Shown in pieces: positions 11,547-30,013 of a stretch of 30,013 nucleotides of DNA (within the stretch, counting starts at the first letter, position 1; each line of letters begins with the position of its first letter). Both the position numbers and the translations under genes were made by a program. The notes under the pieces were generated by a model. That model worked only from the letters and a program-made list of their open reading frames with translations, was not told the DNA's origin and made no database searches. The stretch comes from a virus: positions 1 through 30,013 of IMG/VR virus record IMGVR_UViG_3300025151_000194; one strand, written 5' to 3'.

Positions 11547-12311
11547 TCAATCATCTCCGTACGGGTCGTAGTTACCAACACCCGATTGTTCTTCTAAGAT
11601 GCGTTCCCACTCTTCCTTACCGTCATCCTCTTCTTCTTTCTTAGGAGGAGGGGGAGGAGGGCGTCGAACAGCCACACGTCGAGGAGGTCGAACGGTAGGA
11701 GGTTTCTTTGCATCGCCTCCTAACTTCGCCTGTTCACGACGATTGAACTCTGCAAGAACGCTTTCGATTGGAGCGTCAGGGTCTTCAATAGCGGTGGCTT
11801 GTTCAGGCTCTTTACCTTCTCGCCTTTGCTTACGTTCTTGATATTCCCGCTTTTTCTCTTGTCGAATACGCTCTTTCTCATGCTTTTCTTCTTCGGCTCG
11901 ACGCTTTGCTTCTTCGGCATCTTTCTCGGCTTGAACTCGTGTATCGTCCTTTGCTTGTGCTGATTGTTGTCGTTGTTCGCTAAGTTTACGAGACTGTTCC
12001 AAAAATTCTTGACGCTTAAGTTCTTTTTCATGGGTTCGCTTTTTCTTTCGCTCGGCTTCTTTTGTACCACGACCACCCATATAATCTTCCAATTCTTGTT
12101 TAAAGCGCTCAAGACCTCTTTTTAATCCTTCAAGAGACTTAGGCGTGACACCCATTAAGGCATTGACGTAGTCAGAATTTGTTTTGAGTTGATGCTCTTG
12201 TGTTTCTATTTTTCGCTGTTGCCTTTCAATAGCCTGACGCAACTGTTCTTCCTTTGACTGCTTGAGCAGCATCCACGCTACTTCAAACGGGTCAAGCAAC
12301 AAACCAATCAT
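11547..12311 (-). CDS. Tagged coiled-coil protein with poly-proline C-terminal region
   Basis: 254 residues, overlapping the 3' end of TerL. The N-terminus carries the recurring tag as DPFEVAWMLLKQ. A GGAGATGAT ribosome site points to a TTG start at 12302 rather than the ATG at 12311, which would place the tag at residues 3-11 as in the other tagged proteins. Residues about 15-190 are an almost uninterrupted Lys/Glu/Arg/Gln coiled coil. It is followed by PPTVRPPRRVAVRRPPPPPP, then an acidic stretch containing EEWERILEEQ. Possible roles are scaffold, tape-like or internal virion protein; none can be chosen from sequence. Confidence 0.75.
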   Translation of the reverse strand: MIGLLLDPFEVAWMLLKQSKEEQLRQAIERQQRKIETQEHQLKTNSDYVNALMGVTPKSLEGLKRGLERFKQELEDYMGGRGTKEAERKKKRTHEKELKRQEFLEQSRKLSEQRQQSAQAKDDTRVQAEKDAEEAKRRAEEEKHEKERIRQEKKREYQERKQRREGKEPEQATAIEDPDAPIESVLAEFNRREQAKLGGDAKKPPTVRPPRRVAVRRPPPPPPKKEEEDDGKEEWERILEEQSGVGNYDPYGDD

Positions 12312-13791
12312 CTCCTGTCATACGCTGTGCACCCTTGCCGGGTGAATCAAGAAACCACTTGTCAAATCCGGGCAAGTCGTCGTCGAGTAGGATAACACTA
12401 CCACGGAACTCTTTGGTCGCCCAGTTCGCCAACGCAATCGCCATAGCCAAGTCATCGTGCGAACCGACCGATTCTAACTTACCGCTTTTCTTCATACCGA
12501 AGCGACTGAGTTGCTTCTCAAGTTCACGTGTGTACTCTTTACTACGCTCGTTGCCCCAAGGCGTTTTAATTTTGCCTTGCTCAAAGGCCATCAGCAGCGA
12601 CATGAACATACTTTCCTTGCGTTGTCTTGTGGTCATAAATGTTTTGATGGGGATGTCATCTCGCATATCTTGCAATTCGGCAGCAAACATGCGCTGGAAA
12701 TTGTTGCCTTCAAGTTCAATCAAGTCAGGCTGAAACCGATTGTTGATGAGGAGGATGTTGTTTTTCTGTGCTGCGCCACTCAATCCCTTTTGATTGATGA
12801 CGTGAACCATTTGCTTCTCCTCAGAACCGGGTAGTATTCGCAAAATAACCATCGCCGTGTAGTCAGCATTGGAGTCACTGGCAATCGCAGGGTCCCAGCC
12901 AACGAAGTGTTGCCCAAACACGCCTGCGGGATTGCCTTCTTCGTCGAACTCTTGTTCGGCGTGGTCAAGCAACACGAGGTTTTCGTCTCGTGCTTTTTCC
13001 AACAGACTGTGAGGGAACATACTGGAGTTGTCGTGAATCGGCTCACACAGATACTCACGAGCGAATTTGATAGCAGGCATTGACTGTTCACGCATTCGGA
13101 GTGCGTCGAGAGGCCAACGTCCCGGCCACAGCGGTTCGCCGTTCTCCAAGATAGCGGGATAGGTTTCGACTTGGAACGTGTCCTTCTGTTCAAGTTCAGC
13201 GTACAGGTCGTTGTACGAAAACGGTGTACCGACCATCATCATTCGACCCGTGTGGTGAAGAACAGGAAGGAGAACGGTATAGAACCAGTCGGCTGCACGT
13301 TGAAGTTCAGACGCTGTGGTTCCCCACAGGATGTCATCGCACACGACCACGTCCGGGTGGAAACCACGAGTAGCACCACCAACGGACTTTGCCATGATAC
13401 GACTACCGTTAGTGAACTCAAAGTATGATTTTGCCCACGGCTTGCCTGAGGGCTTGAGTGGTTTGAGAATGTCGGCCATGTCGATGTTGCTACGAATGAA
13501 TCGCATGTGCTCAAGCGTCTGTTCAAGCGAGTGACTGAACACCATGATGTGCGTGTTCGGATTGAACGCTGCAATCCATAGAGCATACGACATGAAGAAC
13601 ACAGACTTACCGTGGTCACGGCTCGCTTTGACGCAGTAGTATCGATTCTCGTTCAGACCTTGGTCCCACGCTTCGTGATGGTCGGCGTAGTCAAATCCAA
13701 GAATCTCAGTGAAAAAGAACTTGAACGACTTCTTCGACATCTCCATGTCGATTTCGTCAACGAGTGCCTTGACACCCTCAGCGTCACTCAT
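12292..13791 (-). CDS. terL: Terminase large subunit
   Basis: 499 residues, of normal length for the family. The ATPase domain shows a variant Walker A, KASRDHGKS (residues 55-63), and a Walker B, DVVVCDD (147-153). MMMVGTPFSYND is the coupling region. The nuclease domain begins at FVGWDPAIASDSNADYTAM, with the metal-binding Asp of the RNase H fold, and includes LIELEGNNFQRMF and a late SHDDLAMAIALANWA block. TerL is the motor that pumps DNA through the portal and cuts it to length. The ATG at 13791 overlaps the end of the preceding gene (ATGA type). This is the most secure call in the window. Confidence 0.95.
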   Translation of the reverse strand: MSDAEGVKALVDEIDMEMSKKSFKFFFTEILGFDYADHHEAWDQGLNENRYYCVKASRDHGKSVFFMSYALWIAAFNPNTHIMVFSHSLEQTLEHMRFIRSNIDMADILKPLKPSGKPWAKSYFEFTNGSRIMAKSVGGATRGFHPDVVVCDDILWGTTASELQRAADWFYTVLLPVLHHTGRMMMVGTPFSYNDLYAELEQKDTFQVETYPAILENGEPLWPGRWPLDALRMREQSMPAIKFAREYLCEPIHDNSSMFPHSLLEKARDENLVLLDHAEQEFDEEGNPAGVFGQHFVGWDPAIASDSNADYTAMVILRILPGSEEKQMVHVINQKGLSGAAQKNNILLINNRFQPDLIELEGNNFQRMFAAELQDMRDDIPIKTFMTTRQRKESMFMSLLMAFEQGKIKTPWGNERSKEYTRELEKQLSRFGMKKSGKLESVGSHDDLAMAIALANWATKEFRGSVILLDDDLPGFDKWFLDSPGKGAQRMTGDDWFVA

Positions 13792-14795
13792 TGTCCGCCT
13801 CCCGTGAATGCGTCAAACGCACGCTGTTCATCTTCGTCTGTTTTAAACCGACGTTGTAATCGTGACGGAACCCTTTGCTCTTGCTGTTCTTCGCCTTCGT
13901 CGCCTTGACTTCCCAATTCACTTTGAATAGATTCAGTGTTCATCTGATGGTCCATATTACCTTCATTGGCTAACGTACGATTGACATCAGCGTCTGTACC
14001 CTCACCCGATGCTACGCTACCCGGCGGAGGTGGAAGTGGAGGTGCCTGTGCCTGCTGCTGCTGTGGTGTCTGTATACCAAGACCAGTTAGCAAATTAAGT
14101 GCTGGTTGAAGTCGCGCCGGGTCTACGTTTTCAACTGCCTGCAAAGTAGGTTCTGCATCTCGTTGTCGTTCTTTCATTCGCTGTTTATACTCATCTTTAC
14201 CTTGACGTGCAAGTTCCCGGCCAAGTTGTTCATTGGCAGCCATTTGAGTTTGTTGTGAAAAATTAGCACGGTCAAGTGCTTCTCGTTCCGATTGTTGTAC
14301 AGCATAGTTGTGTGCACGAACACGCGCCATTGGGTTAAGTTGGGCTAAGTCGAAACTACGAAGTCTCAATTTACCATCATCATCTCTTCTTGGGACAGGC
14401 ACATTGAAGCCCTTACCTTGTGCACGCCTTTCTTCCAACTCGGCTGCCCTTTGTTTTGTGTCATCGATACGGCGCTGCTCTCTCATGTCAGCACGTGCTT
14501 GCCGTGTACGGGTTGTTGCCAAGTTAGCAAGTCCTCGACCAAACCTACTCCCTTGCTCAGCACCGCTGATGATGTTGCCTGTAAGTCCGCCGAGGCTTCG
14601 TGACTCGCCTGCAAGTCCGAACGCTGCCCCCGCCAATGCACCCGTCAAGCCTAATACACGGTCTCGTTTTGTTCGACCACGCACTTCTCCGGGCTGTGCA
14701 CGTCCTCCACTACCACCTAACGTGTAGTACCGTTGCAACCCGTCAGGACCCATTTGGTACTGATACATTGCGGACTTAACCAAGACTTTGCCCAT
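13788..14795 (-). CDS. Structural protein with Gly-rich hydrophobic segment, unknown function
   Basis: ATG 14795 was chosen. It overlaps the stop of the preceding gene (TGATG) and follows a strong GGAGGGG ribosome site; the longer frame to 14855 would overlap the upstream gene for no reason. The product is 335 residues. The N-terminus, MGKVLVKSAMYQYQMG, contains VLVKSA, similar to the suspected cleavage motif. Residues about 45-85 are Gly/Ala-rich and partly hydrophobic (VLGLTGALAGAAFGLAG), possibly membrane-active. The middle is an Arg/Gln/Glu coiled coil. The C-terminal third has PPLPPPPG and acidic low-complexity sequence. No family is recognised; it is probably a virion protein by position just before TerL. 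Confidence 0.7.
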   Translation of the reverse strand: MGKVLVKSAMYQYQMGPDGLQRYYTLGGSGGRAQPGEVRGRTKRDRVLGLTGALAGAAFGLAGESRSLGGLTGNIISGAEQGSRFGRGLANLATTRTRQARADMREQRRIDDTKQRAAELEERRAQGKGFNVPVPRRDDDGKLRLRSFDLAQLNPMARVRAHNYAVQQSEREALDRANFSQQTQMAANEQLGRELARQGKDEYKQRMKERQRDAEPTLQAVENVDPARLQPALNLLTGLGIQTPQQQQAQAPPLPPPPGSVASGEGTDADVNRTLANEGNMDHQMNTESIQSELGSQGDEGEEQQEQRVPSRLQRRFKTDEDEQRAFDAFTGGGQ

Positions 14796-16792
14796 CAAAC
14801 CCCTCCGTTGAAGGTAACCTTGACGACCTTGACGACCTGTGGACTGACGTTCCACTCTTTAGCGATACGGTGCCAGTCTCCACGTGAGTGCAACAGTCCG
14901 TGAACGTCCATCGACGTTATGCCCAAGTCTTTGGCGAATAAGCCGACTGACTGAATTGAATTGAGTTGAATAGGATTGTGAGGGAGCATCTTAAGGATTG
15001 TAGCATCTTGCTTAGCGTCCTCCAGTTGGATGTGCTCCATGGCTTCTGTGATTTCAGCCACCTGTGCCTTTTGAAAATCGGTCAATCGCATTTGACCCTG
15101 AGGCAACTCTTCCATCGGAGGTGCCTCAGCCATAGGCTCCGGTGTAAGAACAGGCATTTCAGTTTGTTGCCCCGCACGAGCCTGAGCAGCGGTCATGTTC
15201 GGATGTGCTGTATCATCATGTATATGCGCCTCGGCATACCGAGGAACGACTGTTGTATAACCACGACGCATGTGTTCTTCGCCCAACGGTTCAAAGGCTA
15301 AGTGACCTTCCGGTAGGTCAGGAATTCCCATCTTCTCTTTCAACTGACCGAATTTGTCTCGACCCAACGCCTGTAGTTCATCACTACGTGTGTGTTTATC
15401 ATGTATGTAATCATGGGATGCAAATCGTTGCTTTATCATCTCTTCAACTTCTTCGGGCGGGTAGCCTTCGGCTACCAATTGTTGCGCTATGTATCGTGGT
15501 ATAGCCAACAAGTGTCGTGAATGTTTGTGTCCATCACGAGAATGAATTGAGTTGAGTATGTTTTGGTATTCTTTCGATTGCATGTCGATGCCGAGGTCAT
15601 TACCTATCGCATTCAGAATGTTTCCGGGCATTGAGTTTTTGCGGCTTTCAGCAAACGCAAAGTGCGTTTTTGGCATGCGGAGCAAATGATATGCTTCTTC
15701 GTCGGTGACTTCGATGTCATGCTCAGCAAATTTTTCCTTAATCGTCTCCGCTGTCAAGTTACCTTGCTTTGTGCCGACGGTATCAAACATAGCCTGCGGA
15801 GCAAAATCAAGACCTTGAAGCGAGTGAAAGTCTGTAATCGGGCGCTCATGACCCGCTTCAAAACGTTCATGCCGTCCACGGTCATGAGCCACTTTGTGAA
15901 ACGTCAAGTGTTCAAGATGTATCACTGGGTTGTTGAGGTACGTTTCCTTGCCGCCTCCAAAAGAATCTTGAGAAAACTGAATCATTTGGTCAAACGCTTT
16001 TGCAATTTCGGGGTCGTTGATGTCGACATTGAAAGCAGGGTTTTGCATCATGTCAACGATACGTCTGAAATAATTCTTGACAGGGTCTTGCATTTCTTCA
16101 TGCATGTGATTGACGCCTGAGTCGATAAAGTTACCTTGGTCGGAGTGTTCAGACAAAACGTTACCCTTGTTGAGAGCATAGTTGATGATTGGATTTTGAA
16201 CACCGTCATCCGATGTTCCGCTACCCCTTGTCATACGCATAGCACCTCCACTGTCTTTGTCAAAAGTGCCAACAGTGTTACGACGCCATTCAACGCTGTC
16301 AACACCGGGCAAAAGGTGCGTTGCATCTTCGCCATGGACGTCAGCATGCTTTGCGTTGAATGCGTCGATAGCAGGCGTCATGACCATCTGTTTGACGATT
16401 TCCTCGGCCTTACCTTGACTAAATCCTAAAATCTTACGCGCGTATTTTGCCAAGTCGTAAATCATGTAGTCCATAGGGTGAAACGTGTGTGGGCGCTCGG
16501 CAAGTTTTCCATCTCTGTGAGGGTTGGATGGGTCGTAATCATTTTGCCACAGGAGTTCCTTTGAGTCGTGGTCAAAGCCAAACGGCGGGTGATGTGCAGG
16601 GACATCGCCTTCAAACTGGTGATACCATGGGTGGTCAGATTCGTGCGTGCGAATAGCCTCTTCGGGGTACCATTCAGACCACGCATCGCCGTTCCTACCG
16701 CTTGCCCGACCATGCTTGAGTCGATACGCTTTGAGAATCTCCGTCGGTTCGGGTTCAGGAAAAAGAATATGTCGGGGTGTGTACTTGAACAT
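14795..16792 (-). CDS. Large His-rich structural protein, unknown function
   Basis: 665 residues, starting at ATG 16792, which overlaps the TGA of the upstream gene with GGGAGAGTGG just before it. The sequence is unusually rich in His, Asp, Gln and Met, much like the N-terminal two-thirds of the 1800-residue protein, suggesting the two belong to a related class of virion proteins. The C-terminal ~60 residues look like a helix-turn-helix: KDLGITSMDVHGLLHSRGDW, then HRIAKEWNVSPQVVKVVKV. A DNA-contact role at packaging is possible (inference). I recognise no catalytic motif. It shares the operon with TerL and the putative small terminase. Confidence 0.7.
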   Translation of the reverse strand: MFKYTPRHILFPEPEPTEILKAYRLKHGRASGRNGDAWSEWYPEEAIRTHESDHPWYHQFEGDVPAHHPPFGFDHDSKELLWQNDYDPSNPHRDGKLAERPHTFHPMDYMIYDLAKYARKILGFSQGKAEEIVKQMVMTPAIDAFNAKHADVHGEDATHLLPGVDSVEWRRNTVGTFDKDSGGAMRMTRGSGTSDDGVQNPIINYALNKGNVLSEHSDQGNFIDSGVNHMHEEMQDPVKNYFRRIVDMMQNPAFNVDINDPEIAKAFDQMIQFSQDSFGGGKETYLNNPVIHLEHLTFHKVAHDRGRHERFEAGHERPITDFHSLQGLDFAPQAMFDTVGTKQGNLTAETIKEKFAEHDIEVTDEEAYHLLRMPKTHFAFAESRKNSMPGNILNAIGNDLGIDMQSKEYQNILNSIHSRDGHKHSRHLLAIPRYIAQQLVAEGYPPEEVEEMIKQRFASHDYIHDKHTRSDELQALGRDKFGQLKEKMGIPDLPEGHLAFEPLGEEHMRRGYTTVVPRYAEAHIHDDTAHPNMTAAQARAGQQTEMPVLTPEPMAEAPPMEELPQGQMRLTDFQKAQVAEITEAMEHIQLEDAKQDATILKMLPHNPIQLNSIQSVGLFAKDLGITSMDVHGLLHSRGDWHRIAKEWNVSPQVVKVVKVTFNGGV

Positions 16793-17931
16793 CAACCCAC
16801 TCTCCCGCTACCACGTGCTGCAAAGACGTGACCGGGCATACCTGATGATGACATCTCGTCGGAATCAGTGCTATCAGTTCCGCCTTGCGGGTTCGTTGTT
16901 TCTCCTCGATGGCCTGCCTCTTTGTTCTTCTTGCTACCACGAGAAAGAGGTGCTTTCTTCATTCGGTCTTGTCGTTCGACGATTTTCTTCAAGTCACGAA
17001 TCATTCGTCGGAGTTGTGAGATGTGAAGATAGTCCTTTGCTGACTTGAGCAACATGTTCATTTCTTGAAGTTCTGACTTCTTGGTTTCGCCTGCAAGTCG
17101 AGGAATCCTACCTGAACCCATGAATCCGGGCTTCGTAGGCGTACGTTGCTCGATGTTGTGAGGCTGATGAGGCATAGAAATATTGCCCATAAGGGCACGC
17201 TGATGTCGTTGGCCGAGTTGTTGTCGATACTTTGCAGGGAACAATCGCAATGGTTGCTTGGTCGAAAGACCCAAGTGACCCATCTCAACAGCGAGTGGCG
17301 ATTCAGTCTGACCACCATGTTCTGTACGTGGGCTGAGTGTACGTGCCTGTCGACTACTTCGCAATGACGTGGCTAAATCAGGTCGGCGTCCACCGGGTGG
17401 ACCATCGTACTTTGGTTGTTGCCACGGTTTGTTTTGCTTCGGCTTTATGTTTTTCAAACTACTCTTCATCAACGTCGACCAAGCGTCGTCCATCGGCTCA
17501 CCTGTAGCAACCAGTGGTCGGTAGCCTCCCATGACACCGTTTGTCTGTGCACCAAGTGCTTGAGACAAATCAGGTCCGCCTGTACCAAGTGCGCCTGCCA
17601 TAGCCGACATGTCAGATGCCATAGCGTCTTGTTCAGGATTGTACATGTTGGGGTTTTCCTCTTCTTGTTGAGGTTCTTCCATTCCACCCATCATCGGGTC
17701 TTCGTCAGGCTTGTCGACGGTGATTTGAAGATGTGGTGTATCACCGACTGTTTTGGTTTCTTCACGTCGACGCATCTTCTCATCACGTCGGCGCTCTTGT
17801 TCTTCGGCATCACCTGCACCATGCCTGTATGAATCCTCGTCATCGGATGCATACATACGACTTGATTCTGAGCGAGGAGCATACATACGGGTATCAGAGC
17901 CACGTCCCATTCCTCCGAATCCACTTGGCAT
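16792..17931 (-). CDS. Disordered virion-type protein with internal tag motif
   Basis: 379 residues, with a GGGGAGGTGGA ribosome site before ATG 17931 and a TGATG overlap with the upstream gene. Most of the chain is low complexity: acidic and Arg-rich at the start, Met/Gln/Gly-rich to about residue 140, basic Gly/Pro/Arg-rich after 160. In the middle, residues 144-158 read GEPMDDAWSTLMKSS, a variant of the recurring tag and like GEPMDLAFRLLK in the 718-residue protein. A helical segment (MNMLLKSAKDYLHISQLRRMIRDL) lies near 280-310 and contains LLKSA. Function unknown; probably an internal or head-associated protein. Confidence 0.7.
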   Translation of the reverse strand: MPSGFGGMGRGSDTRMYAPRSESSRMYASDDEDSYRHGAGDAEEQERRRDEKMRRREETKTVGDTPHLQITVDKPDEDPMMGGMEEPQQEEENPNMYNPEQDAMASDMSAMAGALGTGGPDLSQALGAQTNGVMGGYRPLVATGEPMDDAWSTLMKSSLKNIKPKQNKPWQQPKYDGPPGGRRPDLATSLRSSRQARTLSPRTEHGGQTESPLAVEMGHLGLSTKQPLRLFPAKYRQQLGQRHQRALMGNISMPHQPHNIEQRTPTKPGFMGSGRIPRLAGETKKSELQEMNMLLKSAKDYLHISQLRRMIRDLKKIVERQDRMKKAPLSRGSKKNKEAGHRGETTNPQGGTDSTDSDEMSSSGMPGHVFAARGSGRVG

Positions 17932-21568: not shown

Positions 21569-21817
21569 TCAATCGAACCAACCACCCAGCCAATTCGACA
21601 ACTTCTCGCCAAACCACTGTGCAGTTGTGTCCCAAAGACTCCAGTCGCTGTGAAACTCGATTGCGCTCACGGTGAGTGCTGAGGCGATTGAAAATACGAC
21701 GGTCTTGAGCCAACCCCATGCTCGTTCGTATGCGGTATCAACCGTGTTGGCGATGTGCATAGCACGAAGTGTAGCCTCAGTGCTGTCATCGGTCGGCGTT
21801 TTGAAAATACGACCCAT
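21569..21817 (-). CDS. Small membrane protein preceding the GTPase
   Basis: 82 residues, with GAGGTGACC before ATG 21817. Residues 35-55 form one hydrophobic segment (GWLKTVVFSIASALTVSAI), followed by an amphipathic Trp-rich C-terminus (WSLWDTTAQWFGEKLSNWLGGWFD). Just before the membrane segment, AYERAWGWLK (29-38) fits the recurring tag pattern, though this could be chance in a Trp-rich helix. It ends about 20 bases before the GTPase start, so the two are probably co-translated. Confidence 0.7.
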   Translation of the reverse strand: MGRIFKTPTDDSTEATLRAMHIANTVDTAYERAWGWLKTVVFSIASALTVSAIEFHSDWSLWDTTAQWFGEKLSNWLGGWFD

Positions 21818-22443: not shown

Positions 22444-22474
22444 GGACTGAGAGAAGAGGGACGACTCTCAGTCC
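22444..22474 (-). terminator. Perfect 10-bp hairpin at the end of the 22468 gene
   Basis: GGACTGAGAG (22444-22453) pairs exactly with CTCTCAGTCC (22465-22474), leaving an 11-base loop. The right arm contains the stop codon of the gene ending at 22468, and a TATA-like box follows within 20 bases. It is probably a transcript-end or RNA-processing structure separating two transcripts. No clear poly-U tract follows, so intrinsic termination in the bacterial sense is not shown. Confidence 0.45.
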
Positions 22475-23511
22475 TTGGAATCTCGCTTTCCGTCCGTCGA
22501 AGGACCGGGTCCAGCGTTCTTGGAACCAATGACAATCACCATGCCGTGTGCTGGTTTCTTGCCTTTCTTGTCGTCGGCCTTCTTTTTCTCGTCGCACTTG
22601 CAGTCTTTGCCGCACTTTGGACAGTCGGCTTTTGCTGTGGCACAGTGCATTTTGTCGAGGTCTTCAAGCGTCTTGCGAAGCATTTCGTTGCCGTCGTAGT
22701 GTGTAAATGTCATTGTCTCACCTTTTTGTTTGAATGTGCCTGAACCGCCCTGTTGCCAAATCTGTTCTCGTCCCGTCTGACCGACTCCTACGTTTTGAAG
22801 ATTTTGGTTGCCTGCCGACGGGTCGCCTGCGAGACTGAACTGTCCTTGCTGCTGTTGGCCTCCGCCCATACCGCTACCTGAGGGTGCTGCTGCACCGCCT
22901 CCGCCCACAGACATGTTGCCAAGAGCGTCAGCAATTTGCTTGCCTGCGTAAGCGATGCCACCTCCGACTGCAAGCGGCGTCAGTATACTACGTTGCTTGG
23001 GCGCCTTTGCTGCTTTTGGTGCATACCTTGCTACTCTTGCATTTGCTTGCTGCATAGCCGTGCGTGCTGCACCGACCTGTGACGGAGGGAGTGTTGAAGT
23101 TGATGGACCGAACACATAGCCGATTTCAGGGTTACGGGACTGTGCTAATGCACGACTTTGTTGGGCTGACATACGAGCATGCTTTGCACCTGCTTCCGCT
23201 GCTTCTTTTTGTGCCGCTGCGTACTTACCTGCACGTCGACGTGCCAGTACTTTGCCGCCAACCTTGCCGCCTAACTTCAAGCCGCCCAACGGGAGGACAC
23301 CTTCTCCAAATCCCGTTGCGAGTTGCAAAGCCGTGCTTCCAAGAGAATTGTCTCCCTCAGCCAACTCCCTGCCGGTAATTGGATTTGTGACCTTGTTGTC
23401 TCGTACATTCTTTATGCCTCGATAAGCGCCGTAAGCCAACATCGCTGGCAATAAAATCTTACGAACTTCCTCCTCAGGCTTGAGGACTGAGAAGGCTGCA
23501 TCAATCGGCAT
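22468..23511 (-). CDS. Tagged Gly/Ala-rich protein with C-terminal Cys cluster
   Basis: ATG 23511 was chosen (MPIDAAFSVLKPEEE); GGAAGGTGAT lies upstream, and this places the tag at residues 2-11 as in the other tagged proteins. The 347-residue product has hydrophobic Gly/Ala stretches (about 17-27, 60-85 and 170-195) that may interact with membrane. Much of the rest is Gln/Gly low-complexity sequence. A metal-binding-like cluster, CATAKADCPKCGKDCKCDE, lies near residue 295-315. The tail is basic and Gly-rich. Inference: an internal virion protein that might act on the membrane or DNA at entry. No family is recognised. Confidence 0.7.
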   Translation of the reverse strand: MPIDAAFSVLKPEEEVRKILLPAMLAYGAYRGIKNVRDNKVTNPITGRELAEGDNSLGSTALQLATGFGEGVLPLGGLKLGGKVGGKVLARRRAGKYAAAQKEAAEAGAKHARMSAQQSRALAQSRNPEIGYVFGPSTSTLPPSQVGAARTAMQQANARVARYAPKAAKAPKQRSILTPLAVGGGIAYAGKQIADALGNMSVGGGGAAAPSGSGMGGGQQQQGQFSLAGDPSAGNQNLQNVGVGQTGREQIWQQGGSGTFKQKGETMTFTHYDGNEMLRKTLEDLDKMHCATAKADCPKCGKDCKCDEKKKADDKKGKKPAHGMVIVIGSKNAGPGPSTDGKRDSKD

Positions 23512-23707
23512 AGACAAACATATCACCTTCCTCTACCATCGTTCTGTACTTCTTACGCATGAATGTAAAGTATTCCTGAGCCTCAATCAAGTCAACGATG
23601 AGTTCAGGGTGTTCGTCAACATGCTCCTCAAGCATGTCCACGCACTTTTCGATTTGACATAGCATGTAGTCATACGCAGTGACGACCCAATGTGGTAACA
23701 TACTCAT
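23501..23707 (-). CDS. Small acidic helical protein
   Basis: 68 residues from ATG 23707, chosen for the AAGGAG ribosome site and the ATGA overlap with the preceding gene; the longer frame would sit inside that gene. The sequence is helical and acidic (CQIEKCVDMLEEHVDEHPELIVDLIEAQEYF) and ends EEGDMFVYAD. Its stop overlaps the start of the tagged 347-residue protein by 11 bases. Function unknown. Confidence 0.65.
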   Translation of the reverse strand: MSMLPHWVVTAYDYMLCQIEKCVDMLEEHVDEHPELIVDLIEAQEYFTFMRKKYRTMVEEGDMFVYAD

Positions 23708-25860
23708 CGCTTCTCCTTGCTCTTGCAGTGTGCTCGGCACGAAAAGCCTTTGGGAGCGTTGCAGTTGCAATGCGACATGTCTCGCTTGAGCAACCTGAAC
23801 GCCAAGTCCATAGGCTCGCCTGTGTGAATATCTTGGAACTCATCAGAAAACTGACCACTATCGCCCATTGATGGAAAACTTTGTTTGTATCGTTCTCTTA
23901 AATGGTCATAATGAGGGCTTGTCATCATTTGCATAAGTTGATATTCTCCCTGTTGTTCTAAGTCGTCCTCGTATTCTTCATCACTTGGATATTCTTCACG
24001 AGAAGGCATATTCATTTCAGCCAACTTATACGCTTCATCCTGTAAAGCCGTCATCATGCCTAATTGCCGACGAATTGCCTCTTCGCTATCGTTTTTAAGC
24101 AATCTGAACGCCAAGTCCATAGGTTCGCCTGTTGTGAAGTACGTGTCTTCGTTGAAAGGCATACCACGGAATGTTGGGACTCTTGCCATTGCTCGACTGT
24201 AATATCCAGCAGGTTTGTCATCCACCTTTGTTCCGTGAGGACTGACGAGTTCTGTTTGTACACCCGGCATTTGATACACTTCGGCATGAAACATCCCATC
24301 GCCTTCCATGTCGTCTTCATCATCTACGTCACGAGAAAGGCGAGCCATTTGCTTAGGGTCAGCAATTTGAAACTGTTGACCGAACACTACAGGGCGAGGA
24401 TTGGGTAACGGGAATAGAGCATTCTCACCTGCTACCGTAGGTTCAACGGCTGTTGAATGACCCAAAGGTGTATCGAAAATATGTCGTGAACTTATACCGG
24501 GATGTACCGAAGGGTCTTTGCGTGCACGTTCCATTGCTTCAAACTGTTTCATTTTTACAGGAACTTTTCGATGCATCGACATAAACGTATCAACAACTGG
24601 GTCAGGTGTTTCTTCATCAAACGCTTCAAACGGTTCTTCTTGCTTGATAACAGGCTCAGGTATTATAACAGGCTCAGGTATTGGATTGCCTGCTTCGTCG
24701 AATCGCATTCGCTCTAAGGATGACTGTTGCTCAAGAAGTTGCTGACGTTGCTTTTCTGTATCGTCAAGAATTTTGCTTTCTGCCTTGTCCCTTCTCTTTT
24801 TCGCCTCTTGGTATCTTGCCCTTTCTGCATCCACCACTGTGTCAGCACTTTCGTTAATCAAATTGGATAATCTTGTAGGGAAATTGACCTTAACCGCACG
24901 ACTTAGTGGTCGACTATACAATTGCATCAACTCTTCACCAACTGCTTGCAAATCTTTCTGTTGCCGTTGTTGTGCAGTATCAGGTAGTGGTAGTGTTTCG
25001 CCACCACCTGTTCGGAACCCCGGTCGAACGAGCGCAAATGGTCTTCGCGGCTCGCCCTGCACACTTCGGGGAGTTTGTTTCAAGTTTTTTCCTCGTCGAA
25101 ATTTGCTCGGAGGTCCAACATCAACAGGTATCGTGCTGGCTTTGCGCCCTTTTGAACGAGGAGAAGCAAAATCCATCACTTGACCCGTGCTCAATGCCTC
25201 TTCCAAATCTCGCTCATCTTTCTCATCAGCCTCTTCGTTTGCCCGTACTCTTTGTCGGTTTCTTTTTGCTTCAGGATAAGTGCGGACATACACCCCTTTT
25301 GCTCCTCCTCGCGTGTATTGTGGTTGCAACTTTCTTTCTTGCATACGCATGTGCGCCATAGGCAAATGCTCAGCGCTTGTACGAACATCCTTTTCATTGA
25401 TTGGCTTTAACTCTCCTTCATCACCAACTACCTGTCGCCCTTCTTTGAGCGCTTGTCTAAGTTTTCGTCGAGTGTCGTAGTCTGAATAACGATACTTGGC
25501 TTTACTTGGATTTTTGACAGGTGGTCTCCGCTTTCGCTTCGTAGGTATGCGTATTTTGCCACGGCCTTTGAGAACATTTACTCCTTTGACAATCGTCGGC
25601 TTACCACCTACGCCTTGTTTCTTGCTTCGCTTACGCTTGGTCGCTGCACGCTTTTGACCTGACGTCATTGAGCCACTGGTCTTGGGCGTCTTGCTACTAA
25701 CCTTAACCGAAGGTCGACACTTTGGATAGCCCTTGCTTGAGGTTTTTGCTTTACTTCGACCGCACGGAGGATGCTTACCATCCTTGTTACGGCGTGAAAC
25801 GTCGACCCACTTTTCTTTGAACCATCGGTTCAAGTTTTTGCGGACGAAGACTTTGCTCAT
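23704..25860 (-). CDS. 718-residue basic protein with two internal tag copies
   Basis: ATG 25860 was chosen (ATGA overlap, GGGGAAG upstream). The N-terminus (about 1-90) reads KWVDVSRRNKDGKHPPCGRSK, then KGYPKCRPS and KTSGSMTSGQKRAATKRKR. I recall similar short Cys-containing basic domains in marine viral proteins (DUF5872-like); this is memory, not a search. Residues 90-250 are very basic, 250-570 mostly disordered with helical parts. TGEPMDLAFRLLK occurs twice, with its Lys at residues 589 and 692. The last copy is followed only by a short Cys/Lys tail (HCNCNAPKGFSCRAHCKS). Inference: a nucleic-acid-binding internal virion protein, possibly cut at LLK-(N/R)-D. Confidence 0.75.
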   Translation of the reverse strand: MSKVFVRKNLNRWFKEKWVDVSRRNKDGKHPPCGRSKAKTSSKGYPKCRPSVKVSSKTPKTSGSMTSGQKRAATKRKRSKKQGVGGKPTIVKGVNVLKGRGKIRIPTKRKRRPPVKNPSKAKYRYSDYDTRRKLRQALKEGRQVVGDEGELKPINEKDVRTSAEHLPMAHMRMQERKLQPQYTRGGAKGVYVRTYPEAKRNRQRVRANEEADEKDERDLEEALSTGQVMDFASPRSKGRKASTIPVDVGPPSKFRRGKNLKQTPRSVQGEPRRPFALVRPGFRTGGGETLPLPDTAQQRQQKDLQAVGEELMQLYSRPLSRAVKVNFPTRLSNLINESADTVVDAERARYQEAKKRRDKAESKILDDTEKQRQQLLEQQSSLERMRFDEAGNPIPEPVIIPEPVIKQEEPFEAFDEETPDPVVDTFMSMHRKVPVKMKQFEAMERARKDPSVHPGISSRHIFDTPLGHSTAVEPTVAGENALFPLPNPRPVVFGQQFQIADPKQMARLSRDVDDEDDMEGDGMFHAEVYQMPGVQTELVSPHGTKVDDKPAGYYSRAMARVPTFRGMPFNEDTYFTTGEPMDLAFRLLKNDSEEAIRRQLGMMTALQDEAYKLAEMNMPSREEYPSDEEYEDDLEQQGEYQLMQMMTSPHYDHLRERYKQSFPSMGDSGQFSDEFQDIHTGEPMDLAFRLLKRDMSHCNCNAPKGFSCRAHCKSKEKR
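23790..23823 (-). repeat. Direct repeat, copy 1 (encodes the C-terminal tag)
   Basis: 34 bases that match 24099-24132 with two differences. Both copies are in frame and encode GEPMDLAFRLL, 309 bases apart within the 718-residue gene. The near identity at DNA level suggests recent duplication or conversion of the tag. Confidence 0.8.
24099..24132 (-). repeat. Direct repeat, copy 2 (encodes the internal tag)
   Basis: Partner of the repeat at 23790-23823; only two of 34 bases differ, both at silent positions. Confidence 0.8.
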
Positions 25861-26063
25861 TTCTTCCCCGCCCATGCATCGCACACGTGGTCAGCACGGC
25901 ACGTAAAGTCGTACCACTCACAATAACCCGTCATCGGGTCGTCTGTTTTCGACGAATCCCAAGCCTTGCAATTGCCGCACTTTTGCGGACCTGTTGCCTT
26001 TCGATAATTCGGAGCATCCTCTTTGCCCTTGATAATAGCCCACGCTGCTTCAAGAGGGTTCAT
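25857..26063 (-). CDS. Tagged Cys-rich mini-protein
   Basis: 68 residues, with GGGAGGGAAG before ATG 26063. The N-terminal MNPLEAAWAIIKGK is a full tag. It is joined to a compact Cys domain: Cys29, 32, 48, 55 and 61 in KCGNCKAWDSS...GYCEWYDFTC...VCDAWAG. The pattern recalls small iron-sulfur or zinc-binding proteins seen in marine viruses, including HiPIP-like domains; the metal cannot be decided. It lies between two very basic proteins and overlaps the 718-residue gene by four bases. It is a clear example of tag plus unrelated domain. Confidence 0.75.
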   Translation of the reverse strand: MNPLEAAWAIIKGKEDAPNYRKATGPQKCGNCKAWDSSKTDDPMTGYCEWYDFTCRADHVCDAWAGKK

Positions 26064-26521
26064 TTTTTCTTCCCTCCCTTCTTCTTACCTCGGAACTTAC
26101 CTCGACAGTATTGAACTGCCCATCCGTTAGCGTAAGCCGAAGGATAGACTTTGAATTTGCGCTTGGCTGCCGCTTTACCTGCTGGGCATAACTTCTTTTC
26201 CAACACGTCGATGGCTGCATGCATACCTGTACAGTGCTCGCAATCACACGACTTTTGCACGGGTCGTAGTGTCCCTTTGTCCTTGAAGTGACGTGCACGG
26301 TTGTCATGCTCGTCCTCGATTGTCAATTTGTTACCCTGTGTGTGACTGATGTCTCGATGACTACCGTCACCGTACATGCCACGTTTGCGACGTTCTTGAT
26401 TCAACTCTTCACGATACTTAACTCGCTTTGGTGAAGATTCGTACTTGGTGTCGTACTCAATCTTGTGACGCTTAGCCTCAGGTGATTGAATACGCTTGAC
26501 CAAGACTGTCAACAGTTCCAC
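26060..26521 (-). CDS. Basic protein with YPSAYAN motif
   Basis: 153 residues. The frame starts with GTG 26521, but AGAGGTGG favours TTG 26512, giving MTVLVKRIQSPEAKR, whose VLVKR recalls the LK motif. The middle is charged with CDCEHC (zinc-like). The C-terminal part reads KAAAKRKFKVYPSAYANGWAVQYCRGKFRGKKKGGKKK. I recall the KRKFxVYPSAYAN-WA-x-C-KG string from many marine viral proteins with no known function. The charge suggests DNA or RNA binding. It overlaps the 26063 gene by four bases and belongs to a run of three basic or Cys-rich proteins. Confidence 0.75.
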   Translation of the reverse strand: MELLTVLVKRIQSPEAKRHKIEYDTKYESSPKRVKYREELNQERRKRGMYGDGSHRDISHTQGNKLTIEDEHDNRARHFKDKGTLRPVQKSCDCEHCTGMHAAIDVLEKKLCPAGKAAAKRKFKVYPSAYANGWAVQYCRGKFRGKKKGGKKK

Positions 26522-26823
26522 CTCTTGAGGGCTGCACCTTTTGGCGTCAATTTACCTTTCTTACTTGTAGGCCCTTTGACGCCAGCCATACGTGCACAGA
26601 ACGACTTTCGTCGCTTGGCCTTTTTGCCACCCGGCTTGAGTTTGCTTGGCTTCGTCGTAACAGGTGGCTTGAGGTTTGCACCTGTCTTGCGCTTGGCCGC
26701 TGCACGACCTTTGGCGTTCAGTCCGCCTTTTTTGTGATGTTTATTCGGATTGTACCCGTGAAACGGCTTGGACTTCTTCTTTGCTTTGAGAATGTCCCAA
26801 GCCACTTCAAAAGCGTCCGCCAT
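26509..26823 (-). CDS. Tagged basic protein (KRRKSFCARM family-like)
   Basis: ATG 26823 was chosen because it places the tag at the N-terminus (MADAFEVAWDILKAKK); the longer frame overlaps the upstream zinc-ribbon gene. The 104 residues continue with GLNAKGRAAAKRKTGANLKPPV, then PGGKKAKRRKSFCARMAGVKG and a C-terminal ALKRWNC. I recall this conserved block from marine viral proteins (a DUF6321-like family); this is memory only. Very high Lys/Arg content suggests a nucleic-acid-binding internal protein. No SD site precedes the start, so leaderless or coupled translation is possible. Confidence 0.75.
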   Translation of the reverse strand: MADAFEVAWDILKAKKKSKPFHGYNPNKHHKKGGLNAKGRAAAKRKTGANLKPPVTTKPSKLKPGGKKAKRRKSFCARMAGVKGPTSKKGKLTPKGAALKRWNC

Positions 26824-26849
26824 GTGGTGTGACAGAAAGCCACATGATT

Positions 26850-26990
26850 TTATTGTTTCCACATGCATTCGCAGGCGGGGCAGTGCCAAGCAAAACCTTC
26901 TTGCTTGTTCTGACCCTTGGTTTTAATGTACAATCGTTGAGTAGGGCGGGTCAAACAGTCAGGACATGCGGGGCTTCGACTGCGACCCAT
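26850..26990 (-). CDS. 46-residue zinc-ribbon protein
   Basis: Translated by hand: ATG 26990 to TAA at 26850, with no interruption. MGRSRSPACPDC opens a ribbon with Cys9, 12, 37, 40 and 42 (CPDC ... WHCPACECMWKQ), a standard two-knuckle zinc ribbon. A TATA-like box (TTAAATATA) about 23 bases upstream and no SD support a leaderless transcript. Such proteins often bind DNA or RNA or basal transcription factors; nothing more specific is visible. It lies 28 bases after the HMG-CoA lyase stop. Confidence 0.7.
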   Translation of the reverse strand: MGRSRSPACPDCLTRPTQRLYIKTKGQNKQEGFAWHCPACECMWKQ

Positions 26991-27008
26991 GAATAGCGAT
27001 TAGTGTCC

Positions 27009-27017
27009 TATATTTAA
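27009..27017 (-). promoter_or_regulatory. TATA-like promoter of the zinc-ribbon gene
   Basis: TTAAATATA on the minus strand is centred about 23 bases before ATG 26990, with no ribosome site between. It is followed by GGACACTA, the same string found in the leader of the gene at 22389. Confidence 0.5.
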
Positions 27018-27018
27018 T

Positions 27019-27858
27019 CTAAGCGATGGTCGGCTGTGCTTGAAGGGCTTTGACCTTGTCCGCCCACACAAGTGCACCTTGCAAATCGTCAACGGTCAAA
27101 CCGACGTCGAAGGCATGGTCGTTCAAGTACTGAACCAAACGTTCAGTAGCGAGGTTGCCACCGCTACCTTCAACGAACGGACAGCCTCCCAATCCCCCGA
27201 TACTGGAATCGAATTGCGTGATACCTGCAAAAATACCATACTTGACTCGCTCAAGTGCTTTGTTCTCTTCTCCTTCGCTGTGGTGAAGATGCAAAGCGGA
27301 AGTAAGTGAATACTCACGTGCATAGTCGGCTGCAATTTCAATCTCTTCACGTGTTGCTCTGCCGACAGTGTCTGCAAAAACAACGGTTGAGCCGAGCATT
27401 GAAGCGTCACGCACGCATTGTTTGAGTAAATATGGTGCAATTTCACCCGAATATGGGCTGCCAAACGCCATTGAAATGTAAACACGTACGTTTTCTTTGG
27501 GAATTCCTTGAAGCATGTTCTTGAACATGTATACCAATTCCGTACGTGTACGTCCCATGTTGTTGATGTTGAACGTCTCGCAGGGTGAAAACACCACGTT
27601 GAACAGTTTAACGCCCGCTGCCAGCGCTCGTTCCATGCCTTTTGGGTTCATAACCAGTGCTGCACCATAAGCGTGCACATCCTCGGCATCAGCCATCTGT
27701 GGCACACGCTTTGGGTGCACGAACGAAACCTCTTCGATGTGTTCGATACCTGATTTGTAGAGTTCTGAAATCATTCGACGTTTGACGTCTGTAGGTACGA
27801 ACACAGGTAAATTTTGCAATCCGTCCCGTGGTCCTACTTCATAAACTGTCAAGCGCAT
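27019..27858 (-). CDS. mvaB: Hydroxymethylglutaryl-CoA lyase
   Basis: 279 residues, slightly shorter than the usual ~300. HMG-CoA lyase splits HMG-CoA into acetoacetate and acetyl-CoA. The family signatures are intact: EVGPRDGLQN with Arg11 and Asp12, FADTVGRA (161-168), metal ligands in HLHH (His190, His192), the GGLGGCPF loop with catalytic Cys226, and GNLATE with Asn235. The TIM-barrel strands run through the whole length, so the gene appears complete. It has its own TATA-like box. In archaea HMG-CoA is the entry to the mevalonate route for membrane lipids, so a viral copy could divert it, or salvage acetyl-CoA (inference). A related acyl-CoA lyase with another substrate is possible. Confidence 0.9.
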   Translation of the reverse strand: MRLTVYEVGPRDGLQNLPVFVPTDVKRRMISELYKSGIEHIEEVSFVHPKRVPQMADAEDVHAYGAALVMNPKGMERALAAGVKLFNVVFSPCETFNINNMGRTRTELVYMFKNMLQGIPKENVRVYISMAFGSPYSGEIAPYLLKQCVRDASMLGSTVVFADTVGRATREEIEIAADYAREYSLTSALHLHHSEGEENKALERVKYGIFAGITQFDSSIGGLGGCPFVEGSGGNLATERLVQYLNDHAFDVGLTVDDLQGALVWADKVKALQAQPTIA

Positions 27859-27879
27859 GTTCGCCTCACAAGCATTCGC

Positions 27880-27888
27880 TATACTTAA
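27880..27888 (-). promoter_or_regulatory. TATA-like promoter of the HMG-CoA lyase gene
   Basis: TTAAGTATA on the minus strand is centred 26 bases before ATG 27858, the textbook archaeal distance for a leaderless transcript. GTGAGG six bases before the ATG could also serve as a weak ribosome site. I see no gene in the 156 bases between 27858 and 28015. Confidence 0.5.
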
Positions 27889-28014
27889 CGATAGAGGTGG
27901 ATGGGCGAGGGTTGGAAAGAAGAAAGGAACCCTGAGAGGTGGTTATCCTTGACATTGAAGCCCAAGAAGGAAAAAACCAACCCTCACCCGATAAGTCTGA
28001 TTCAGGCGATTTAC

Positions 28015-28188
28015 TTAATCCTTTTGTATGAAAGCGGAATTTCGCAAGCCACCGATGCAGTCTTGCTGAACTTCTTCCTCAGTGATGAGGATTGTTTTGT
28101 CACGCAAGTCTTCTGTGATGAACCATGTTGTCAAGAATCCCACTACAAAAGCAATGAATGCAATTATCAAGTATTCTGCCCAACTCAT
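28015..28188 (-). CDS. 57-residue single-pass membrane protein
   Basis: Translated by hand from ATG 28188 to TAA 28015, with no interruption. It starts two bases after the stop of the preceding tagged gene, whose end (GGTGTAAAC) can act as a ribosome site. Residues about 5-23 are hydrophobic (EYLIIAFIAFVVGFLTTWF), followed by an acidic soluble tail (ITEDLRDKTILITEEEVQQ). Close spacing indicates co-transcription with the gene upstream. Function unknown; a membrane or lysis accessory is possible. Confidence 0.65.
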   Translation of the reverse strand: MSWAEYLIIAFIAFVVGFLTTWFITEDLRDKTILITEEEVQQDCIGGLRNSAFIQKD

Positions 28189-28190
28189 GT

Positions 28191-28496
28191 TTACACCAGT
28201 TCTCGTCCAAGGTTTTCAGGCGTCATACCCTCAGGTGCACCCATGTTACCACCGTATTCTTGTCGGCCTGCTTGTTGCTCCATGGTTGGTATTCGAGGTG
28301 CTGGTCCTTGACCTTGCATGAAGCGTTTAAGTTCTTGTTTGATTCGGTCAGCGTGTGCCTTCATTGGCCCAGTTGAGTCGCCATATTGATTGACAAAATC
28401 ACGAGCAGCCTCAATCGGCGCTAAAGCACGCATCTCGTTTGGCCCACGAGGGATTGATTTGAGAATCAACCATACGTGTTCAAAAGGAGCGTCCAT
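28191..28496 (-). CDS. Tagged small helical protein
   Basis: 101 residues. The N-terminus MDAPFEHVWLILKSIPRG is the recurring tag with Val before the Trp. After it come helices (IEAARDFVNQYG, MKAHADRIKQELKRFMQGQG) and a Gly/Met/Pro-rich tail. No family is recognised. The ATG at 28496 has no SD; TTTTTACC centred about 26 bases upstream could be a weak promoter box. It belongs to a row of consecutive tagged genes from 28191 to beyond 30013. Confidence 0.7.
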   Translation of the reverse strand: MDAPFEHVWLILKSIPRGPNEMRALAPIEAARDFVNQYGDSTGPMKAHADRIKQELKRFMQGQGPAPRIPTMEQQAGRQEYGGNMGAPEGMTPENLGRELV

Positions 28497-28536
28497 AACG
28501 AGTCCAAGGGGTCATAGGTAAAAATCCTATTGGAAC

Positions 28537-28986
28537 TTATGCACCAAGATATGTACCTTGTTCCATATCAACCAAGCCTTCTTGACCCATCTTGTCCCAA
28601 AACGGCACTGACCTATCGAGCATTTCATGGGGGATGAGGTTGACAGGTCCACCATGTGCTTCTTGTAAGTCGTTTTTCAACTCAGTCAAACCCTGACGCC
28701 CAAGTCCACGTTCTCGCATCTCTTGACTTACAGCAAACGTGTCGATAGCATAGTTGTTGTCGCCTAAGTGAATAAGCCCTGCGCGTGCATTTTTATCCTT
28801 CGACTCAAAGAAATGACTGTATTTTCTCTTCAACCCCTCGTAATCGGTGAAACCTTGAAAGCCCAGTTCAGGTTTTCGTAGTTTTGGAAAGTTAAACGCA
28901 TCGCTGTAACCAACATCTGATATGGTGTCTTCCTGAAATAGTGGGGCCTTGATGATAGCCCAAGCCACATCAAAGGGGGTTGTCAT
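28537..28986 (-). CDS. Tagged GNAT-like acetyltransferase
   Basis: 149 residues. MTTPFDVAWAIIKAP is the tag. Residues about 60-149 look like a GNAT fold: a strand YAIDTFAVS, then SQEMRERGLGRQGLTEL, matching motif A with the (R/Q)-x-x-G-x-(G/A) acetyl-CoA loop. Next come NLIPHEMLDRSVPFWDKMGQEGLVD, with the usual late FWxKxGF-like helix and strand. GNAT enzymes transfer acetyl from acetyl-CoA to amines or protein N-termini and lysines; the target is unknown. If the tag is a virion signal, this would be an enzyme carried in the particle (inference). The domain is short, so activity is uncertain. Confidence 0.7.
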   Translation of the reverse strand: MTTPFDVAWAIIKAPLFQEDTISDVGYSDAFNFPKLRKPELGFQGFTDYEGLKRKYSHFFESKDKNARAGLIHLGDNNYAIDTFAVSQEMRERGLGRQGLTELKNDLQEAHGGPVNLIPHEMLDRSVPFWDKMGQEGLVDMEQGTYLGA

Positions 28987-28998
28987 ACGCCATCACAT

Positions 28999-29232
28999 CT
29001 ATTTTTGTGGCCCTATTGGGGAAAATCCGCCTTGCATCATCTGTTCAATGTACGCACGAATGGCAGCCTTTTGCTCAGCCATCTGTGGGTCAAGCATTTC
29101 GCCTTGTTCAGCATCGTTTCGCTGTCGGTCCATTTCACGCTTCGTCCTGTTGGTTTGTGTTGAACGTGCAGGTCCGTCTTCCGGCGGGACAAGTGATTTC
29201 AGTATGCCCCATGCTGTATCGATTGGTTGCAT
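28999..29232 (-). CDS. Tagged small charged protein
   Basis: 77 residues, with AGGAGATGA before ATG 29232. MQPIDTAWGILKSLVPPEDG is a canonical tag. The rest is a charged helix (TKREMDRQRNDAEQ, MAEQKAAIRAYIEQMMQGG) with a Gly/Pro/Gln tail. No domain is recognised. The SD overlaps the stop of the preceding tagged gene, so the two are translationally coupled. Confidence 0.7.
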   Translation of the reverse strand: MQPIDTAWGILKSLVPPEDGPARSTQTNRTKREMDRQRNDAEQGEMLDPQMAEQKAAIRAYIEQMMQGGFSPIGPQK

Positions 29233-29236
29233 CTGT

Positions 29237-30013
29237 TCATCTCCTTGTCATGTAAGCCTGTCGGTTTGGTGCTCTTTCGGACTCACTGAATAAATTGCCC
29301 CCATCGGCCATCGCACGCCAGTTGACAATGTCGATTGGGGCTATAGGCTCATTACTGTCGGGGCTAATGTCATCACGCATCATGTCAGCGTGCGCTAACT
29401 GTGCGCCCAAGTGTTCCATCTGTGACGGGTCGGGCATCGAAGCATCGCCTGCTTCTTCGATTGATAGCGGTACACCGGGTATTGGTGCAGGTCGTTGACC
29501 GATGCGGTGCATGAGTTTCATACGCTCTTGCATGAGATTCCTGAGTTGCAAGTTCGTACGTGGGTCTATTCCCGCAGCGTTCATCTGTGCAATTTCGTAA
29601 TTCATATCTTGAAGACGTTGTTCAAGGAATTGCCGATTCGGGTCGCCGACTCCCGGCGTACTGACTGGTGTAGGCGCATTGATTCTCCTATACTCGGCTT
29701 CCTCATCGGGGAAGATGGCCTCGTTGTATTCTTGCATCATACCCCCAAATTCACCCCGTCCACCTGTTTGCTTTGGATTGACGATGATGTTGCCGAAGTC
29801 GTCCGTAATCGGTTGGTTCATTGGCGAAAGTGGCGTCATCATGTCAACTGGTGGTTCCTGTTCGTCCATGAAATTGGGTCGACCATAGAACTCAGGTCGC
29901 ATGGTGCCTGACATACGAGGCACACCGCCTGTGCGAGCAGCCATCTCTAAATCTTCACGTGACAGTTCCTTGAGGATTGACCAAGCGGAGTCAATCGGAG
30001 CGTCGGATGAGCG
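29237..30013 (-). CDS. Tagged disordered protein (5' end outside window)
   Basis: The frame is open to the window edge; no ATG lies in the 23 codons before Met at 29944, and these codons encode SDAPIDSAWSILKEL, a full tag. The start must therefore lie just upstream of 30013. The visible 258 codons are rich in Met, Pro, Gly, Asn and Glu, with a helix about LEQRLQDMNYEIAQMNAAG and RNLMQERMKLMHRIG. Near the C-terminus, APIDIVNWRAMADGG weakly echoes the tag. Function unknown; grouped with the tagged proteins downstream. Confidence 0.7.
   Translation of the reverse strand, partial: RSSDAPIDSAWSILKELSREDLEMAARTGGVPRMSGTMRPEFYGRPNFMDEQEPPVDMMTPLSPMNQPITDDFGNIIVNPKQTGGRGEFGGMMQEYNEAIFPDEEAEYRRINAPTPVSTPGVGDPNRQFLEQRLQDMNYEIAQMNAAGIDPRTNLQLRNLMQERMKLMHRIGQRPAPIPGVPLSIEEAGDASMPDPSQMEHLGAQLAHADMMRDDISPDSNEPIAPIDIVNWRAMADGGNLFSESERAPNRQAYMTRR

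Follow-up and report, generated by a model that had tools for sequence, protein, structure and literature searches.

Introduction

Short peptides that load unrelated cargo proteins into a protein shell are familiar from encapsulins and bacterial microcompartments, which are non-viral and whose cargo peptides are mostly uncleaved. Among viruses, bacteriophage T4 carries a capsid-targeting sequence (CTS) on its internal proteins (IPs) IPI-IPIII and on Alt, which is cut by the gp21 protease (PMC9026906, PMC9958956); ten residues of the CTS are enough for packaging, targeting depends mainly on residues 4 and 7 and processing on residues 8 and 10, gp21 cuts at L/I-X-E, and the cargo Alt is an injected ADP-ribosyltransferase (PMC9026906). 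HK97 is cleaved at K103/S104 (PMC10275583), making Lys a reasonable residue at P1, the position just before a cut. Here we describe a ten-residue tag shared by otherwise unrelated late proteins in a 30,013-nucleotide stretch of viral DNA (IMG/VR record IMGVR_UViG_3300025151_000194, positions 1-30,013; hereafter the window) and in its relatives. We think it probable, on comparative sequence evidence, that the tag is a two-part capsid-targeting propeptide which would load proteins into the procapsid and then be clipped off by a protease. A targeting role is well supported by these comparisons; the procapsid is the most likely destination, and the prohead protease the most likely agent of removal.

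Results

A tag on unrelated proteins of the window

The strict tag pattern occurs 10 times in 9 window genes, against a mean of 0.002 in shuffled proteins; if the pattern also admits the additional residue of PMDDAWSTLMK, gene 16792-17931 joins them and the total rises to 11 copies in 10 genes (about 0.01 in shuffles), and a looser pattern that includes AYERAWGWLK gives 12 copies in 11 genes (shuffle mean 0.01). Every match is in frame on the minus (coding) strand, and all of the motifs listed in an earlier reading of this DNA (the original prediction) were recovered at the genes it had named. That prediction had proposed a comparison with shuffled sequences as a check, and the excess of 11 copies over about 0.01 bears it out; shuffles, scrambled-order motifs and reverse patterns together rule out a chance origin. 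AYERAWGWLK, in the membrane protein encoded by gene 21569-21817, is kept in orthologues but lies mid-protein, is probably not a tag, and was set aside. Eight genes had been said to carry the motif at or near the N-terminus, which is clear for seven; the eighth (29237-30013) is cut by the window edge, and its tag lies at residue 202 of a 466-amino-acid (aa) fusion in one relative (G004) and at residue 4 in another (G001).

A residue profile weighted by cluster reads P/A, F/I/M/L, D/E, x, A, W, x, L/V/I/F, L, K, and the first, putatively docking half often has Ser, Thr, Asn or another helix-capping residue ahead of it. Information reaches 6.4 bits at W and 4.5 at K, is 0.69 at the next residue and then 0.23 and lower, so that conservation collapses directly past the Lys. 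The invariance of A, W and K is partly imposed by the DNA pattern described below; position 8 (P3, two residues before P1) was left free and is L/V/I/F/M in about 95% of tags, and when genomes were scanned with [KR] permitted, 27/27 N-terminal tags ended in Lys. The residue after the Lys (P1') is Ala in 31%; Ser, Glu, Gln, Asn, Asp and Gly are also frequent there, and Pro, Lys, Thr or a hydrophobic residue is seldom found. The 326 distinct tag DNAs use all four Pro, six Leu and both Lys codons; selection thus acts at the protein level, and this codon diversity rules out a codon or nucleotide-level translation signal.

Restriction to one virus clade and to late genes

Six full-length relatives contain 5-12 copies of the tag per genome (0.2-0.4 when shuffled), and six further relatives 4-9 tagged genes per genome, including G089, whose major capsid protein (MCP) is among the most distant. 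A DNA scan with the pattern M-x-P-[FILMV]-[DE]-x-A-W-x-x-[hydrophobic]-K found at least 120 matching stretches in viral contigs, and a slightly tighter version found 3 matches in ~85,000 prokaryote (GTDB) genomes, which rules out a host-derived motif. Of 45 tagged contigs tested, 36 carry the clade's MCP; a terminase search of those without it gave no match, and the clade's family-B DNA polymerase (PolB) placed 8 of the other 9 in the clade. Single matches in other phages (L095, L098, L116, L123 and L154) come from contigs with neither the MCP nor the PolB of the clade and were dismissed as chance. Judged by these scans, the tag belongs to a single virus clade. Its recurrence among the marine archaeal viruses of this clade (~100 kb, with thermosome and PolB), and its conservation on orthologous proteins of the relatives, agree with what the original prediction had expected of related genomes.

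The MCP strand holds 54/55 and 40/42 tagged genes (94/97 when pooled over 12 long contigs), compared with 532/1263 other genes (Fisher 1e-29, in a test where neighbouring genes are not independent), and the early half of the 12 genomes is practically tag-free.

Diverse and modular cargo

The 355 unique N-terminally tagged proteins fall into 155 clusters with no detectable similarity past the tag and with several distinct folds, so that the claim of completely different cargo behind a shared motif stands. Together with the internal copies described below, these clusters and folds also rule out paralogous N-termini as the origin of the tag. Pfam names few cargoes (GNAT in window gene 28537-28986, HD, PARP/ART-PolyVal, and DUFs), and most have no Pfam match. 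An AlphaFold2 (AF2) model of the second-largest cluster (predicted local distance difference test, pLDDT, 80) places the tag within an N-terminal helix of residues 3-18, and the top PDB matches of this model in Foldseek are all ADP-ribosyltransferase-fold proteins (KptA, Arr, PARPs and ART toxins; best E 3e-3); this cargo family is thus predicted to have an ADP-ribosyltransferase fold. A ParB-like identity for one cargo cluster has weak evidence only (Pfam E 0.03-0.09), and a comparison with PDB sequences gave nothing relevant.

A view of the tag as exclusively N-terminal could not be upheld, as internal and C-terminal copies are common. Internal copies have a longer lead-in, typically [TS]GEPM[DE]xA[WF]; proteins of the relatives have up to three copies, some of them 2-12 residues from the C-terminus. 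One G004 gene (63183-64583) has two tag-like motifs, one at the start and one at residue 202, G075 51813-54695 has three internal tags, and the G001 orthologue of window gene 22468-23511 has an additional upstream domain, which places the tag at the junction. Of the distinct segments that follow internal tags, 38/69 are homologous to N-terminally tagged cargo, most of them beginning at residue 1-2 past the tag in both contexts, although a Met shortly before the internal tag makes a few of these matches artefactual. For example, the AKKKSKPFHGYNPNKH module of window gene 26509-26823 sits behind an internal tag in G021, and a SPEALRHK module does so in G044, the tag ahead of it in G025 being N-terminal. 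At 26060-26521 of the window, a SPEAKRHK module stands behind a degenerate tag-like lead (MELLTVLVK↓R, the arrow here and below marking a proposed or corresponding cut); in other genomes it stands behind true tags.

A matching pattern in the head proteins

A gene with a Peptidase_S78 domain lies beside the MCP and portal genes, identifying it as an S78 (HK97-type) prohead protease, here fused to a scaffold-like region. The end of the tag, [LVI]-L-K, can be set against the T4 site L/I-X-E: P1 is not Glu, and the sequence matches a conserved hydrophobic-x-Lys↓small pattern in the head proteins. Among 27 protease-scaffold orthologues, i) Lys22 is invariant in a variable N-terminus, with P3 L/I/V and P1' S/G/A in 27/27; ii) Lys175 marks the end of the catalytic domain; iii) Lys342 fits the pattern in about 25/27; and iv) Lys433 is invariant within a variable linker, with P3 I/L/F and P1' S/A in 27/27. 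An AF2 model of the protease (mean pLDDT only 62) has low-confidence segments at 1-24, 176-192, 224-259, 295-344 and 425-438, which contain or adjoin these Lys residues. Across the 12 genomes, [LIV][LI]K occurs at 1.55-2.15 times expectation in the untagged late proteins of each genome and at 0.70-1.23 of expectation in early proteins, and is depleted in mature cargo (0.48).

Further conserved sites are listed in Table 1, among which the N-terminal site of gene 14795-16795 possibly marks a short propeptide. Two other late proteins are of note here: the 1800-aa protein (1932-7334) has a conserved LAK↓AD / LTK↓S site, and gene 13788-14855 appears to begin MGKVLVK↓SAMY (in G004, MSKILVK↓ASPQ), a start that looks like a propeptide of seven residues ending in the cleavage pattern proposed here.

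Table 1. Genes, tags and proposed cleavage sites in the window
Feature	Position	Strand	Remarks
MCP	3-485	-	truncated at window edge
S78 prohead protease + fused scaffold-like region	501..1901	-	Pfam PF04586 E 2.2e-11; PHROGs head maturation protease; AF2 model
Protease-scaffold Lys433, proposed cut TIQK↓S	603..605	-	27/27 Lys; low-confidence segment 425-438
Protease Lys175, proposed catalytic-domain/scaffold cut FRILK↓ED	1377..1379	-	27/27 Lys; low-confidence segment from 176
Protease Lys22, proposed N-terminal self-cleavage SLLK↓S	1836..1838	-	27/27 Lys; low-confidence segment 1-24
MCP Lys34, proposed maturation cut SELLK↓AD	384..386	-	[LI]LK↓[AS]D in 26/26 MCPs
1800-aa protein	1932-7334	-	late gene
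Small core genes	between 1800-aa protein gene and portal	-	late operon
Gene 7734-8114 (scaffold-like), conserved site DILK↓D / MIIK↓G	7869..7871	-	
Gene 8124-8471, conserved site ALLK↓AD / AITK↓S / EIFK↓S	8298..8300	-	
Portal	8502-10235	-	PF04860
Tag PFEVAWMLLK	12261..12290	-	residue 8 of gene 11547-12311 (coiled-coil, Pro-rich basic protein); kept in G001, G004
Terminase	12292-13791	-	then further late genes up to 30013
Gene 14795-16795, conserved N-terminal site EILK↓A	16730..16732	-	12/12 Lys, P3 hydrophobic, P1' small
Internal tag TGE-PMDDAWSTLMK	17464..17496	-	residue 146 of gene 16792-17931; orthologues with 1-3 copies
Tag PIDAAFSVLK	23479..23508	-	start of gene 22468-23511; Pro next (atypical)
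Internal tag TGE-PMDLAFRLLK, copy 2	23785..23814	-	gene 23704-25875, ahead of Cys-rich C-terminal module
Internal tag TGE-PMDLAFRLLK, copy 1	24094..24123	-	gene 23704-25875
Tag PLEAAWAIIK	26028..26057	-	residue 3 of gene 25857-26063 (Cys mini-domain)
Tag AFEVAWDILK	26785..26814	-	residue 4 of gene 26509-26823 (basic protein)
Tag PFEHVWLILK	28458..28487	-	residue 4 of gene 28191-28496
Tag PFDVAWAIIK	28948..28977	-	residue 4 of gene 28537-28986 (GNAT domain, Pfam E 2e-5)
Tag PIDTAWGILK	29197..29226	-	residue 3 of gene 28999-29232
Tag PIDSAWSILK	29969..29998	-	truncated gene 29237-30013

The virus and its late operon

The window is a single minus-strand late operon of a tailed virus, and its relatives are marine IMG/VR contigs of up to ~110 kb. 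One of them, G004 (terminase 97%), is 103 kb long with repeated ends and encodes a group II chaperonin, PolB, and an AAA clamp-loader-like ATPase, a gene content that matches the described Marine Group II virus clade with thermosomes (clade 1; ~100-kb archaeal tailed viruses with PolB; PMC5332604). By gene content alone, the virus thus appears to group with magroviruses (Poseidoniales viruses). A terminase search among named phages (INPHARED) returned distant bacterial phages only and no close match.

Several neighbouring genes deserve mention. Towards its C-terminus the 1800-aa protein gives a weak match to an ATP-dependent DNA ligase domain (Pfam E 4e-4); the protein encoded at 10235-11554, between terminase and portal, has an HNH-endonuclease-like region (PHROG 5046, E 1e-11), and its gene is fixed and conserved across the full relatives compared; and an untagged HMGL-like (HMG-CoA lyase-type) enzyme gene at 27019-27858, within the tagged cluster, is kept in several relatives. 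A second common motif, M-x-W-x-[DE]-[VI]-H-x-L-A, stands at the end of the protease-scaffold (519-551, MSWDEVHRLAG) and of the scaffold-like gene 7734-8114 (7776-7814, MDWADIHRLAEEA), on the minus strand in each case. Most relatives keep this motif, which is probably a shared capsid or portal contact.

Discussion

We propose that the first six residues of the tag, [P/A]-[FIML]-[DE]-x-A-[WF], would fold into a short amphipathic helix docking on a putative partner, specific to the clade, in the core or the shell of the procapsid, and that the last three, [LVIF]-[L]-K, would be a cleavage site for the virus's S78 prohead protease. Late-made cargo, whether single or in tag-module-tag-module fusions, would be packed into the procapsid; the protease would cut past the Lys, so that each module comes loose from where it had docked; and the freed modules would exit with the DNA at infection to act on the host. 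The propeptide reading is supported by i) the sharp end of conservation past the Lys; ii) the hydrophobic-x-Lys↓small pattern in protease-scaffold and MCP; iii) the enrichment of that pattern in late proteins; iv) its depletion in cargo; and v) the modularity of tagged proteins. The original prediction of a targeting signal on diverse cargo has gained comparative support, in that the tag is kept in orthologues, is confined to one clade and almost wholly to late genes, and travels with its module; its further suggestions of procapsid recruitment and of cleavage past the Lys, both of which we infer, are each backed by comparative lines.

Other readings account for parts of this evidence. A docking helix for some other late structure (tail, portal vertex, adhesin, or lysis/exit apparatus) that is never cut would fit the motifs at C-termini, the K↓P of gene 22468, and the tagged gene that follows the gene for a giant 5294-aa late protein in G004, and could appeal to the partner of the propeptide being a postulate; we nevertheless regard it as unlikely, if worth keeping in mind, because it leaves unexplained the near-absolute Lys and the one-residue preference past it, as well as the hydrophobic-x-Lys↓small pattern in protease, scaffold and MCP and its depletion from mature cargo. 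Were the motif instead an extended protease site only, serving polyprotein processing or the removal of an inhibitory prosequence with no targeting, the internal copies that part modules would be expected, as would the agreement of the Lys and the hydrophobic P3 with the proposed protease sites. Yet the P-F-D-x-A-W half is strongly conserved in the tag and absent from the scaffold and MCP sites, so that the protease would have no need of it, and tags stand at residue 3-4 of proteins with nothing upstream to split off; we therefore find this quite improbable.

A shade less probable again is a host-directed short linear motif that binds the archaeal ribosome, chaperonin or a transcription factor: the virus does encode host-type machinery, such as the group II chaperonin, but the tag is essentially absent from prokaryote genomes, limited to late genes and bound to one capsid/polymerase clade, and a host partner gives no account of the Lys end. 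Hardly credible, finally, is common descent of the N-terminus by duplication and divergence, or a translation signal at the nucleotide level; tagged genes are often adjacent and small, but 155 unrelated clusters, distinct folds, internal copies and free synonymous codons contradict both.

We wish to stress that several observations also count against a capsid-targeting propeptide. The docking partner is only a postulate, and the virion location is drawn from comparison. Part of the depletion in mature cargo is not Lys-specific, since [LIV][LI]R is depleted as well (0.53); a global test of conserved hydrophobic-x-Lys↓small sites failed to part late from early proteins (17/155 vs 5/61 conserved Lys), and a strict test of isolated invariant Lys was too small. 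The tag of gene 22468 is followed by Pro, and its G013 and G021 orthologues end in SVLE rather than LK; P1' is less tightly constrained past the tags (A/S/G in about half) than it is in the scaffold; a propeptide role is less obvious for the tags close to a C-terminus; the strand opposite the MCP holds three tagged genes, of which one is a weak match; and the 12 genomes are kin, so that per-genome tests are not independent.

We would give about even chances to the wider proposition that, in viruses infecting uncultured planktonic archaea, a general cleavable address tag loads into the virion an open-ended and fast-changing effector set (>150 families, including ADP-ribosyltransferase-fold enzymes) for delivery with the genome, its modules freed by Lys-specific cleavage of tag-module chains. 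If this is true, the proteins that an uncultured group of marine archaeal viruses probably delivers from its virions can be picked out by a one-line sequence signature, which puts forward hundreds of small, unannotated genes to be tested for host takeover or counter-defence; the specificity of the prohead protease can be predicted; and the tag could be put to use in loading proteins into an archaeal-virus capsid. T4-style capsid targeting would then be no peculiarity of T4, archaeal viruses using it with a different sequence.

Comparison with known systems

The original prediction knew of no described system with this exact tag, in agreement with the literature searched, where we found no description of it (subscription literature and preprints fell largely outside that search); the T4 tag works in the way proposed here. 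As in T4, about ten residues at the N-terminus are common to otherwise dissimilar late proteins, a putative targeting half precedes a putative processing half with P3 and P1 as determinants, and an ADP-ribosyltransferase-fold protein is found among the cargo, as is Alt. Unlike the T4 CTS, the tag has another sequence with Lys rather than Glu at the proposed P1, serves many times more cargo families, occurs as internal and repeated copies in fusions, and belongs to archaeal viruses known from metagenomes only. The tag profile, compared by eye only with the T4 IP propeptide, had no alignable identity with it. By analogy, the T4 CTS is the closest known system functionally, although by sequence and P1 the tag is not a member of it.

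HK97 resembles the present virus in its S78-family protease and, as proposed here, in a cut after Lys before a small residue and in an N-terminal MCP cut, but has its scaffold in the MCP rather than a scaffold-like region fused to the protease; we know of no cargo tag for HK97. Giant-phage ejection proteins (SPN3US, phiKZ) resemble the proposed cargo in being many head-packaged proteins, several of them processed by a prohead protease at short motifs, but are cut after A-X-E, several of their propeptides exceed 100 residues, and a common ten-residue tag is not reported in the available text of that study (PMC5694885). Polyvalent proteins, as presented in the available text of their description (PMC5512222), are late-encoded, predicted packaged host-conflict enzymes (ART, ParB-like and others), often multidomain fusions, for which that text describes no common address tag. 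ART-PolyVal Pfam matches occur among the tagged cargo, and the late multidomain features found here comprise ART-PolyVal/PARP, HD and GNAT cargo plus multi-tag fusions, most cargo having no Pfam match. Polyvalent proteins are thus, by analogy, the closest match for the cargo, with the difference that a module here usually brings a tag of its own.

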